Origin: Candidatus Hydrogenedentota bacterium
GTDB taxonomy: Bacteria; Hydrogenedentota; Hydrogenedentia; Hydrogenedentales; SLHB01
DNA length: 64,000 nt
Assembly (NCBI GenBank): GCA_029552745.1
Contig: JAKPDK010000184.1
Span: forward strand, 551,372-615,371
Direction of reading: 5' to 3'
Shown piece after piece: positions 60,379 through 64,000 of the stretch (the stretch's first letter is position 1; each line of letters opens with the position of its first letter). Below the pieces are notes generated by a model that made no database searches, had not been told where the DNA came from, and saw only the letters and a program-made list of their open reading frames with translations. Made by a program: the position numbers and the translations under genes.

Positions 60379-62613
60379 CTACCGTATCTCCACTTCGGCA
60401 TAATCCACGCGTTCGGCGCTGTTGGTGTGACCATGAATGTGGATGGTATAGGATGGTTCACACCCTGACCGCCGGTCCGCCAAACAATAGGAAACGAATG
60501 CAGGTTCCAAAGGAATTGGTACCCATTCGATGGTGCGTTCATCAGGATATACCGACGCCAGATAATTCCCCGCCTTTTCACCTTGTGCAAACGCAACCAC
60601 GTAAAGTCGGCCGTCTGGAGTCTCATGAAATCTCGCTTGTACAGGCTCACCCGAAGCATTCCCCTCCCAAATTACGCGACGCTCGATGAGCTTGCCTTGG
60701 TCTACCACCGCAAGAAACAAAGATCTGGTCACCGAAAGCCCCGGGAAAAATCGGTCGCGCAACAATTCCGACGCTACCGGCTGCTCCGTGTACAGAATAT
60801 ACGCTTGCCCGGAAGGGCTTACCCACAGGTCCTGGTTGAAAATGTTCCCCGCTGTCGCATCTACGTTCGCAATCTCAATGGGTTCCATAAAATCTTGCGC
60901 CAAAATATCCGGCGTCCATGTAAAATAGAGAATGCGAAACACATAATCCCACTCGCGTTGAAGTTTCTCCCGCTTGTACGCGCGCCATTCCTCAACAGGC
61001 TCATAGATATCACCCACCGCAAGTACGTACGCCGCCTTTCCTTGAAGCGCCACCTGCGGATAACACGCCCGAATGGGGAAACCAATCGCACCAGAACGCA
61101 GCGTCTCGCCCTCCTCTGTCAGATAACACCAGTGCTGTAAGGAAGTCTGGGCATCAATGTGTAACACGAGCAGTCGTCTCGAGGTAGGATCTGCAGCCAA
61201 CCCCCGGTAAGAGTGATCCGTAAAATGAGGCAACGGGTCGCCCCAGTTCGGCAAAATCCGCTGCGGCTCTTCTTCCAACTCGTCTATGTCAAAACGTAAC
61301 AGCCCCGGCTCGCACCGACCATAGCGTGTCCCGGGAGGCTCCACCAAGTCGTTCACACTCAAAAACAGTCGTTTGCCCATCACGGCCAAGGGACAAGGTT
61401 CCCGTTGAGAAAAGCTCCCCGGCATAGCCACCGTTTCCCACCCTTGTGCCCCACGCCGTAGCAAGCGCCAGCGCGTGTTCGAAAGCGGCAGAACGTCCCG
61501 CCCCGTTTCCATCTGACTTACAAAAACGTCCTCTCCCGAACACACAACTTGGGTATTTCCGTGTGACCACATCGGACCCGACCCATTGTTTGGCGGCTCA
61601 AAACGATAAACTTCTTCCTGAACGCGAACGATCGCCATAGGTTTTGTTCTCCAATCTCCCAGCAGCGCTGCCAATGCCTTGCCCACGGCTTCGTGTCCTT
61701 CCTCGTTCAAATGTACCCCGTCGGTAAACGAATTAGCAGGCAGCGCCCCCGTCTGCCGCAACCCCGAACACATAATCCCAGCCGCAGCAACCTGTTCCAT
61801 AATGTTCTGTTCCACACGGGGATCGTCCATCGGCTCCGCCACTGGACACAACACCAAATGAAGCGCGGCGCCTTTCGGCAGGCACTCCGCAAGGGTGCGC
61901 AATGCTGCCACGTTTGTCGCAATCTGATGTTCCCCCGCAGTCTCGCCGCCCCGCGCGATCGACGACGGCTTCTCCTGCAGCATGTCCCAGCCGAGCAGCC
62001 GTCCCGCGTGCCAACGCAACAGCGCAAAGCCCACAGGCAACGCCCACCGCGGTTTTTCAAGCGGAAACGCCACACTCGAGCCCGTCAGTTCCGTCACAGG
62101 CGGTCGCTCAAAATCGCGAGGAATTGCAAACACCAGCACAAGGTCTGGCTCCAATTCTTTCAAACGACTTTGATAAAGCGCCACCATCTGCGCCACGGAA
62201 TACCCATTCACCCCGGCGTTCACGACCTCGCAGTTGGGCAACTTCCGTTCCAACACCGACGTGAAAAGCTTCTCTTGAGGAATCCCCAACCCGCCCCACG
62301 TTACCGAATCCCCCAATACCAAAATCCGCCGCACCCCCGGCTTGCGCGAGAAAAACGGACGCGCATCGCGCACGCCCCACTCGTTCACCACAACACGCAC
62401 CCCGCCGATGTGCACATCCTGCATCGGCTTCACTCGGTACCCGGCGACATCGTCGCGCTCATACAACACCATGTTGCGGGCGCCCAACACCCGCAAGCCA
62501 CCCTCTACCAACAAGAGCGCCAACGCTACGGAAAAGAAGATAGCCGCTGCCCGACGCCCCATCCAATAAAAACGGTGCTTCACCGGTCGTCTATCCGTGT
62601 TTACGCCATCCAT
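60379..62613 (-). CDS. membrane-anchored SGNH/GDSL hydrolase with large C-terminal beta domain
   Basis: 744 residues. An N-terminal membrane segment (RAAAIFFSVALALLLVEGGL) is followed by an SGNH domain at about 90-320: ILVLGDSVTWGGLGI (Ser), VVNAGVNGYSVAQM (Gly/Asn) and DGVHLNEEGHEAV (Asp/His). The remaining 400 residues look like a beta-propeller with repeated short strands (FVSQMETGRDVL, KRLFLSVNDLVEP, AYILYTEQPV). Related proteins carry O-acyl groups on polysaccharides or remove them. It ends 10 bp before the URO-D-like gene. It could be the SGNH partner of the MBOAT enzyme, although they are 16 kb apart. Confidence 0.75.
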   Translation of the reverse strand: MDGVNTDRRPVKHRFYWMGRRAAAIFFSVALALLLVEGGLRVLGARNMVLYERDDVAGYRVKPMQDVHIGGVRVVVNEWGVRDARPFFSRKPGVRRILVLGDSVTWGGLGIPQEKLFTSVLERKLPNCEVVNAGVNGYSVAQMVALYQSRLKELEPDLVLVFAIPRDFERPPVTELTGSSVAFPLEKPRWALPVGFALLRWHAGRLLGWDMLQEKPSSIARGGETAGEHQIATNVAALRTLAECLPKGAALHLVLCPVAEPMDDPRVEQNIMEQVAAAGIMCSGLRQTGALPANSFTDGVHLNEEGHEAVGKALAALLGDWRTKPMAIVRVQEEVYRFEPPNNGSGPMWSHGNTQVVCSGEDVFVSQMETGRDVLPLSNTRWRLLRRGAQGWETVAMPGSFSQREPCPLAVMGKRLFLSVNDLVEPPGTRYGRCEPGLLRFDIDELEEEPQRILPNWGDPLPHFTDHSYRGLAADPTSRRLLVLHIDAQTSLQHWCYLTEEGETLRSGAIGFPIRACYPQVALQGKAAYVLAVGDIYEPVEEWRAYKREKLQREWDYVFRILYFTWTPDILAQDFMEPIEIANVDATAGNIFNQDLWVSPSGQAYILYTEQPVASELLRDRFFPGLSVTRSLFLAVVDQGKLIERRVIWEGNASGEPVQARFHETPDGRLYVVAFAQGEKAGNYLASVYPDERTIEWVPIPLEPAFVSYCLADRRSGCEPSYTIHIHGHTNSAERVDYAEVEIR

Positions 62614-62649
62614 TTCACTAAGTACAACGAGAGCTCATCCAAAGCCCCT

Positions 62650-63423
62650 TCATGACTCCGGAGGCGAGATAGAAACCGAAACCAAATGCCCCTTGAGGTC
62701 GACAAACTGAAAACCTATTTTCGCTTGCATCGGTTTCTTCTCGCACTCGATCTGATACTTCAATTCCAACTCCGGCGGATTCCCTGCTCGAAATTCCTTC
62801 GATTGCAACGTCAACCCTTTCATCGCACCACTTTCCGGCAACGCAGAGTCCAAAAACGCCTGCAGCTGTTCCGCTGTCAACACCTTCTGTAATTCTTCGT
62901 GCATCATCGCACGCGCCTCGTCAATCTTTCCCGTCATGATTTTCGTCAAACAGTCTTCTGCCTGCTTCTCATAGAGCGCGGTGTCCGAAAGCTCGGTAAA
63001 CCAATCCGCCAACTTATCCGATTGCACGTTAAACTGGATGATCTTCCCATCCCGCAATACCAACGCCGACTGCGCATCCCCTTGCTCAAAGCGCACCGTT
63101 CCGCTACTCTCCGTGATCTTGACACCATCGCGAATTTGCGTGCTCGTGTTAAAATCCGTCGCGCGTAGCCCCTTGCACTTCCCTAACCGAGCCTGCATCG
63201 CTTTCACCCATGCCGCTAACACCGGCGCGTCGATTTGCTGCTGCAACTCGGCATCCAACAGCGCCATCACCTCATCGACATTGCCTGAATCCACCGCCCG
63301 ATAAAACGCCTCTTGTTCCGACGCCCCGCGGTGAAACGCCAACACCAACAACACCAACAACACCCCTAGAACCACCCCAACCAGCACCACCACAGCGCCA
63401 CAACCCGCTAAAAAACTCTTCAT
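62650..63423 (-). CDS. membrane-anchored protein with two DUF3887-like domains
   Basis: 257 residues. One hydrophobic segment (VVVLVGVVLGVLLVLLVLAF) at 11-30 with a Cys before it (AGCGAVV) is followed by two related domains: AFYRAVDSGNVDEVMALLDA...VKAMQARLGKCKGL (about 40-85) and CLTKIMTGKIDEARAMMHEE...DSALPESGAMKGL (about 155-205). Such domains are DUF3887-like and otherwise uncharacterised. It lies 36 bp upstream of the SGNH gene on the same strand. It is the gene directly behind cas2, facing the other way. Confidence 0.6.
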   Translation of the reverse strand: MKSFLAGCGAVVVLVGVVLGVLLVLLVLAFHRGASEQEAFYRAVDSGNVDEVMALLDAELQQQIDAPVLAAWVKAMQARLGKCKGLRATDFNTSTQIRDGVKITESSGTVRFEQGDAQSALVLRDGKIIQFNVQSDKLADWFTELSDTALYEKQAEDCLTKIMTGKIDEARAMMHEELQKVLTAEQLQAFLDSALPESGAMKGLTLQSKEFRAGNPPELELKYQIECEKKPMQAKIGFQFVDLKGHLVSVSISPPES

Positions 63424-63530
63424 GACTCGCTCCCTCCAAAGTTAGCTGTTTCACGTCATGCTACACCCAACCATCCCCTACATCAAGCCCCAGTTGAAAC
63501 ACGCCAAGTCCGTGCGGAAAACTAAAGCCC

Positions 63531-63875
63531 GTGAAAAACAAACGTCGCGAGTTCTCGGAGTACAAAGGCGTGTGGCTCTTCGCCCTCTTCGATCTGCCCG
63601 TAGATACCGCTGAAACCCGCAGAAGCTATACCAAATTCCGCAATGCCCTCATCAAAATGGGCTTCAGTATGCTGCAATACTCCGTTTACGCCCGCTACTT
63701 CAACAGCGAGGAATCTTGCGAACCCTACCGAAAACGCATCCGACAAGCCCTGCCCACAGAAGGCCAAGTGCGACTACTTGCAGTTACCGACAAACAATTC
63801 GGAAAAATGGAAGTTTACAGCGGCAAAAAACAAAAAGAAGTAGAAGAACCTCCCCCACAACTCATGCTTTTCTAA
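63531..63875 (+). CDS. cas2: CRISPR-associated endonuclease Cas2, type II-like
   Basis: 114 residues from GTG 63531. YKGVWLFALFDLPVDTAETR carries the Cas2 catalytic-position Asp, and YTKFRNALIKMGFSMLQYSV with YARYFNSEESC and VRLLAVTDKQFGKMEVYSGK are close to what I know of type II-C Cas2 proteins. The tail PPPQLMLF is also seen there. Cas2 pairs with Cas1 in spacer uptake. No cas1 or cas9 lies upstream: only 107 bp separate it from a divergent unrelated gene. The array starts 51 bp after its stop. Partner genes must be beyond the right edge or missing. Confidence 0.88.
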   Translation: MKNKRREFSEYKGVWLFALFDLPVDTAETRRSYTKFRNALIKMGFSMLQYSVYARYFNSEESCEPYRKRIRQALPTEGQVRLLAVTDKQFGKMEVYSGKKQKEVEEPPPQLMLF

Positions 63876-63892
63876 AGCCCCAAAAAACACTA

Positions 63893-63923
63893 ACCCCCCT
63901 TAACCACTGGGGTTAAGAGGGGT
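63893..63923 (-). terminator. minus-strand terminator between cas2 and the CRISPR array
   Basis: ACCCCCCTTAACC and GGTTAAGAGGGGT pair at 12 of 13 positions with a five-base loop. On the minus strand the stem is followed by TAGTGTTTTTTGG, a T-run fitting Rho-independent termination; on the plus strand no T-run follows. It would end a transcript coming from the array. Confidence 0.65.
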
Positions 63924-63925
63924 CT

Positions 63926-64000
63926 AGTATACCTGAGCGGAGATTCTCCTCAAACCACAGCAATGAAGATTGAACGTGAACCTCGTCAAAAGTATACCTA
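63926..64000 (-). CRISPR. start of a CRISPR array, type II-like 36-nt repeat, cut by the window edge
   Basis: A 36-nt unit from AGTATACCTGAGCGG to CTCAAACCACAGC, a 29-nt spacer, then AGTATACCT again at 63991-63999 give a 65-bp period, the usual one for type II arrays. The next base differs (G versus A), as expected for a worn leader-distal repeat. Read on the minus strand the repeat begins GCTGTGGTTTGAGG, similar to type II-C repeats that begin GTTGTGGTTTGA. With the terminator beside it, this suggests transcription from right to left, towards cas2. Only one repeat and nine bases of the second are visible. Confidence 0.7.

Follow-up and report, generated by a model that had tools for sequence, protein, structure and literature searches.

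A Type II-C CRISPR-Cas9 System of Candidatus Hydrogenedentota Cut by Contig Ends, with cas2, Hairpin and Array Apart from cas9

In this family the genes cas1 and cas2 stand side by side almost without exception, and their products act together in a single complex. At the end of contig C102 of a Candidatus Hydrogenedentota genome (G000), a solitary cas2 gene is followed by the beginning of a CRISPR array, and its upstream neighbour is a divergent, unrelated gene. Where, then, are the cas1 and the effector that belong to this cas2? The DNA analysed here, referred to as the window, consists of the last 64,000 nucleotides of the contig (G000:C102; 615,371 bp), which ends exactly at window position 64000. 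The assembly is a draft of 188 contigs and is 99.7% complete. The system is a type II-C CRISPR-Cas9 of this bacterium, cut by contig ends.

Cas2, hairpin and array at the contig end

The features at the right-hand end of the window are as follows.

62650-63423, minus strand: gene for a DUF3887-domain protein of 257 aa (Pfam PF13026, 44.2 bits; cut-off 31.8)
63424-63530, no strand: divergent intergenic region of 107 bp between the starts of cas2 and the DUF3887 gene (DNA search and tblastn)
63531-63875, plus strand: type II cas2, intact, GTG start, 114 aa (TIGR01573, PF09827, PADLOC Cas2_II)
63924-63892, minus strand: leader-side hairpin with a 14-pair stem, abutting the first repeat; tail AGTGTTTTTT, T-run towards cas2 (folding, relatives)
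63926-63961, minus strand: first CRISPR repeat, complete, 36 nt; crRNA strand GCTGTGGTTTGAGGAGAATCTCCGCTCAGGTATACT (orientation via the tracrRNA anti-repeat)
63926-63953, minus strand: promoter-like site within the repeat, TTGAGG-16-TATACT, directed towards cas2 (one found versus 0.3 expected)
63962-63990, minus strand: spacer, 29 nt (position between repeats)
63991-64000, minus strand: first 10 nt of a second repeat, AGTATACCTA (nine of 10 bases equal the repeat start; cut by the contig end)

Cas2 scores 72.9 bits against TIGR01573 (cut-off 24.5), the PADLOC model that fits it best is Cas2_II (140.3 bits), and it is 52-64% identical to the Cas2 of 10 relatives, with an invariant FDLP motif. 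The DUF3887 gene is outside the CRISPR system, its product has no known CRISPR role, and it marks a foreign left neighbour of cas2. With six Cas1 proteins as tblastn queries, no cas1 was found anywhere in the window, nor any cas1 remnant in the 107-bp gap, which was also inspected by eye. A sequence-only reading of this DNA had described a type II-like cas2, 107 bp from a divergent and unrelated gene, without cas1 or cas9 to its left, and followed by a minus-strand hairpin with a T-run and a 36+29-nt repeat unit; this description is upheld in all its parts.

One and a quarter repeats are weak evidence for an array when taken alone. Two things secure the array: relatives carry near-identical 36-nt repeats equally far after cas2, and the genome itself has a tracrRNA that matches. 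Repeats and spacer are present, as in a type II array, and the repeat family is confirmed in relatives. The orientation of the anti-repeat predicts crRNA on the minus strand; the array would thus run opposite to the cas genes, with putative promoters inside the repeats, as in type II-C systems. A search of IMG/VR gave no exact match for the spacer. The repeat has no further copy in the assembly at up to three mismatches over 33 bases, so that the assembly also lacks the array's far end; in relatives, the last repeat of the array is usually intact or nearly so.

In the window, 50 nt separate cas2 from the first repeat; the length of this stretch is near-constant, mostly 50-56 nt, across 62 II-C loci. 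Most relatives carry an equivalent hairpin in the same place (stretches in L061-L152; window 63873-63925). In 41 of the 62 loci this stretch folds better than shuffled sequence at z below -2, and in 35 of them z is below -3; since the loci are related to one another, these counts are not independent. Equally long stretches past the other end of the array have a median z of -0.3, versus -4.9 on the cas2 side, and z falls below -3 in 0 of 20 at the far end versus 14 of 20 on the cas2 side. Stem sequences differ widely while the pairing is kept, and most of the hairpins have no T-run, which argues that the element is not simply a terminator; it may serve Cas1-Cas2 as an anchor for insertion or give pre-crRNA its 3′ end. 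The literature describes hairpins close to II-C arrays on their upstream side (PMC12080349). A description of the leader-side hairpin was not found in the literature searched, which is no proof that there is none.

The cas9 fragment and its tracrRNA on a second contig

Another contig of the same genome, C100, starts inside a cas9 gene, of which the N-terminal 701 residues are present. The fragment matches TIGR01865 with 590 bits, HNH_4 with 72.4 bits and Cas9_a with 55.4 bits; it aligns from residue 7 with Cas9 models and with solved Cas9 chains, its nearest solved chains being Cas9, and the alpha-helical-lobe and HNH domains are recognised. By this 701-aa N-terminal part it answers to a type II Cas9 with HNH and RuvC nuclease domains, of which the C-terminal RuvC-III part would lie beyond the contig start. 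The frame is Cas9-like up to the last residues of the fragment, so that the break is a contig edge and not a visibly truncated gene. The C-terminus of Cas9 was found nowhere in the assembly. An HNH match to TIGR01865 on C31 was rejected as below the cut-off. Pfam RuvC_III had no match in the genome, which is uninformative, as it had none in the controls either. The Cas9 of G000 used as query against the genome_contigs collection gave no confirmed match.

The RNA partner lies beside the fragment.

C100, anti-repeat from 2181: tracrRNA gene, just upstream of and divergent from cas9 (DNA search, duplex energy)

It comprises a promoter (TTGACT-17-TATCAT), the anti-repeat, stem-loops and a terminator with TTTTTT; Rfam gave no match on the region. 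The predicted duplex of the anti-repeat with the window's repeat has an energy of -54.8 kcal/mol, versus -16.5 ± 3.5 for shuffled anti-repeats, and the genome therefore holds a tracrRNA whose anti-repeat corresponds to the repeat of the array. The sequence-only reading had considered an effector elsewhere and looked to an anti-repeat for the 36-nt repeat; both have now turned up on C100.

Of the II-C gene set, cas9 and cas2 were found in the assembly and cas1 was not, but the assembly also lacks the DNA that follows cas9. cas2 does not stand in one operon with cas9 in the assembly. The only Cas1 proteins found are those of two other systems, and no type II cas1 was found. One of them, at C106:265 with its cas2, was ruled out as the missing partner, as it is accompanied by an array with another repeat and its nearest counterparts are Cas1b/Cas2b; the other, at 453 kb of C106, was ruled out as belonging to a type I-E-like set. 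The former is part of a Cas1b/Cas2b-like adaptation set at the start of its contig (G000:C106:1-2400; L008), with repeat TTAACCCCCTAGACCTGATGAAGAAGGGATAGAAAC. The latter lies in L009 (3567-9495 and 10473-10889; G000:C106, about 448.5-456 kb), where type I-E-like cas genes are followed by cas1 and an apparent further array. The genome seems to hold three CRISPR systems.

Gene order in relatives and its exceptions

Relatives of the same order carry a divergent tracrRNA, then cas9, cas1, cas2 and the array, with repeats much like those of the window; the cas genes in their loci are cas9, cas1 and cas2 only, with neither the csn2 of II-A nor the cas4 of II-B. cas1 lies directly upstream of cas2 in every one of the 13 relatives from the order, in 78 of the best 80 loci from named genomes (a few of these being the same genomes as among the 13), in all eight other Sumerlaeota, and also in L151 and L152. 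An unusual CRISPR layout had been proposed for the window from its letters alone. One part of that claim falls away: transcription against the direction of the cas operon is normal for II-C arrays (PMC3936727), so the convergence of array and cas2 is ordinary. The other part stands, a cas2 without cas1 upstream being unusual against the 13 of 13, 78 of 80 and eight of eight above.

L151 and L152 are IMG/VR contigs of 39.1 and 31.6 kb, each with a complete and ordinary cas9-cas1-cas2-array locus of about 58 and 30 repeats, respectively; they are classed as viral and may be cellular DNA wrongly classed.

Among the nearest known counterparts are the II-C loci of seven other Hydrogenedentota (G037, G038, G033, G061, G036, G041 and G008). 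Their Cas9 is 42-53% identical to that of the window genome over the N-terminal part and their cas2 about 60% identical to the window's; as in the window genome, their 36-nt repeats mostly start with AGTATACC or similar, and the tracrRNA is divergent upstream of cas9. They differ in that cas9, cas1, cas2 and the array are contiguous on one strand, whereas the cas2 of the window has an unrelated divergent neighbour. The EH CRISPR-Cas9 (PMC10281378) is likewise a metagenomic II-C system with a 36-bp repeat, a 29-bp spacer, an array truncated at a contig end and a tracrRNA upstream of cas9, but its gene order is the ordinary cas9-cas1-cas2.

Only two of the 80 are exceptions. In Planctomycetota OFTM389 (L119), the adjacency of cas1 and cas2 is broken as it is in the window: cas1 is divergent upstream of cas9, followed by cas9-cas2-array, so that, unlike in the window, cas9 and cas2 are still adjacent. 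In Candidatus Sumerlaeia SKW40 (L103; JAOAGV010000003.1), a solitary cas2 stands next to an unrelated divergent gene and is followed by a hairpin and then, at the contig end, by two repeats, while the first ~120 residues of cas9 and a matching tracrRNA lie at the start of another contig (G100:C66; L140), and no cas1 was found in the genome. This is the arrangement of the window, but the cas2 of SKW40 is only about 60% identical and the neighbouring genes are others. The repeats of the window genome and SKW40 are AGTATACCTGAGCGGAGATTCTCCTCAAACCACAGC and AGTGTACCTGAGCGGCGATTCTCGTCAAGCCCCAGC. In a weakly resolved tree of few columns the two cas2 genes are not sisters, and a shared origin of the two layouts has no support from it; they may have one origin or separate causes.

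Where the missing stretch may lie

We lean towards the following reading, with only a little more confidence than doubt: the window end is the adaptation end of the system (cas2, leader hairpin, array), and the missing DNA is most likely one stretch between C102 and C100, in which case cas2 and cas1-cas9 would converge on an array lying between them. The array's far end, cas1 and the Cas9 C-terminus would all lie in this stretch, which was either not assembled or not binned. The assembly has no further copy of the repeat, though the last repeats of relatives are nearly intact, which places the far array end there together with cas1 and the rest of cas9. A single gap is the simplest account; cas2 would be followed by the array and, beyond it, by cas1 and cas9 pointing back at the array. 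The orientation of the cas9 fragment is the one expected of a gene on the right-hand side that faces the array, an arrangement that would depart from the normal order. Against this reading count the draft state of the assembly, the loss of everything to the right of position 64000 and the lack of a direct link. No sequence overlap joins C102 to C100, and synteny in same-family genomes of other genera recovered a GDSL-like gene whose neighbours are not conserved; with regard to the single gap, both comparisons are neutral. Moreover, contig breaks inside cas9 need no special layout, as in the relatives G032 and G044, which also break there and for neither of which a cas2 was found.

If the system works like known II-C systems, crRNAs would be transcribed on the minus strand, from repeat-internal promoters towards cas2, and would pair with the tracrRNA to guide Cas9, while Cas1 and the window's Cas2 would insert spacers beside the cas2-side leader. 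Insertion at the cas2-side end agrees with the published II-C polarity (PMC12080349) and with the arrays scanned, seven of which have an imperfect terminal repeat at the far end, whereas no array has one at the cas2 end. With less assurance, we infer that a rearrangement with its breakpoint between cas1 and cas2 split cas2-leader-array from tracrRNA-cas9-cas1.

The detached cas2-leader-array unit is probably real, and the array perhaps sits between convergent cas2 and cas9. That this amounts to a II-C layout found in Hydrogenedentota and Sumerlaeota, and thus in at least two phyla, with the array flanked by a separately transcribed cas2-leader unit on one side and a convergent tracrRNA/cas9-cas1 unit on the other and with Cas1 and Cas2 expressed from its opposite ends, is a tentative proposal that we would sooner doubt than rely on. 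The layout is a modest variation on a known system. If cas1 and cas2 are truly split in two genomes, with cas2 kept beside leader and array, their operon is not required, and it becomes testable whether linkage of cas2 to the leader outweighs its linkage to cas1. A partial II-C Cas9 and its tracrRNA are gained from a little-studied phylum, and the known working of Cas9 immunity is unchanged.

Unlikely by comparison is a chimeric C102, falsely joined between the DUF3887 gene and cas2, behind which the true locus would be an ordinary tracrRNA-cas9-cas1-cas2-array. Such an artefact would suit a draft assembly in which one contig ends in the array, cas9 is cut by the start of another and cas1 is absent, as well as the ordinary order of nearly all relatives. 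False joins in assemblies usually need repeated DNA at the joint. A search of the genome with window positions 62400-64000 matched only the query itself and the tracrRNA anti-repeat, and the junction (63424-63530) contains no DNA repeated in the genome that would cause a false join. The ribosome-binding-like GGAGGGAG ahead of the DUF3887 gene start is also kept inside that same intergenic region, and a solitary cas2 occurs in a second, independent assembly, that of SKW40.

We give similarly little probability to a single inversion or translocation that would have parted cas2-array from tracrRNA-cas9-cas1 and left the halves far apart in the chromosome. One inversion that broke the locus between cas1 and cas2 would be consistent with how the two fragments are oriented, but a contig starting with the far end of the array would then be expected, and no second repeat copy was met with at up to three mismatches, while relatives usually keep their last repeat intact.

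Loss of cas1, leaving a frozen II-C system with interference and no spacer acquisition unless another Cas1 of the genome acts in trans, would accord with the lack of a type II cas1 in a 99.7% complete assembly and in SKW40, and has a precedent in the II-C locus without cas1 mentioned for Flavobacterium branchiophilum (PMC8092290), but we consider it improbable, as both assemblies lack the very place, after cas9, where cas1 would be expected, and cas2 is intact.

Further to the left in the window (60379-62613, minus strand), a 744-aa protein consists of a GDSL-like N-terminal part joined to a C-terminal part in an apparent fusion; in same-family relatives the two parts are separate genes, adjacent in G014 and on different contigs in others.
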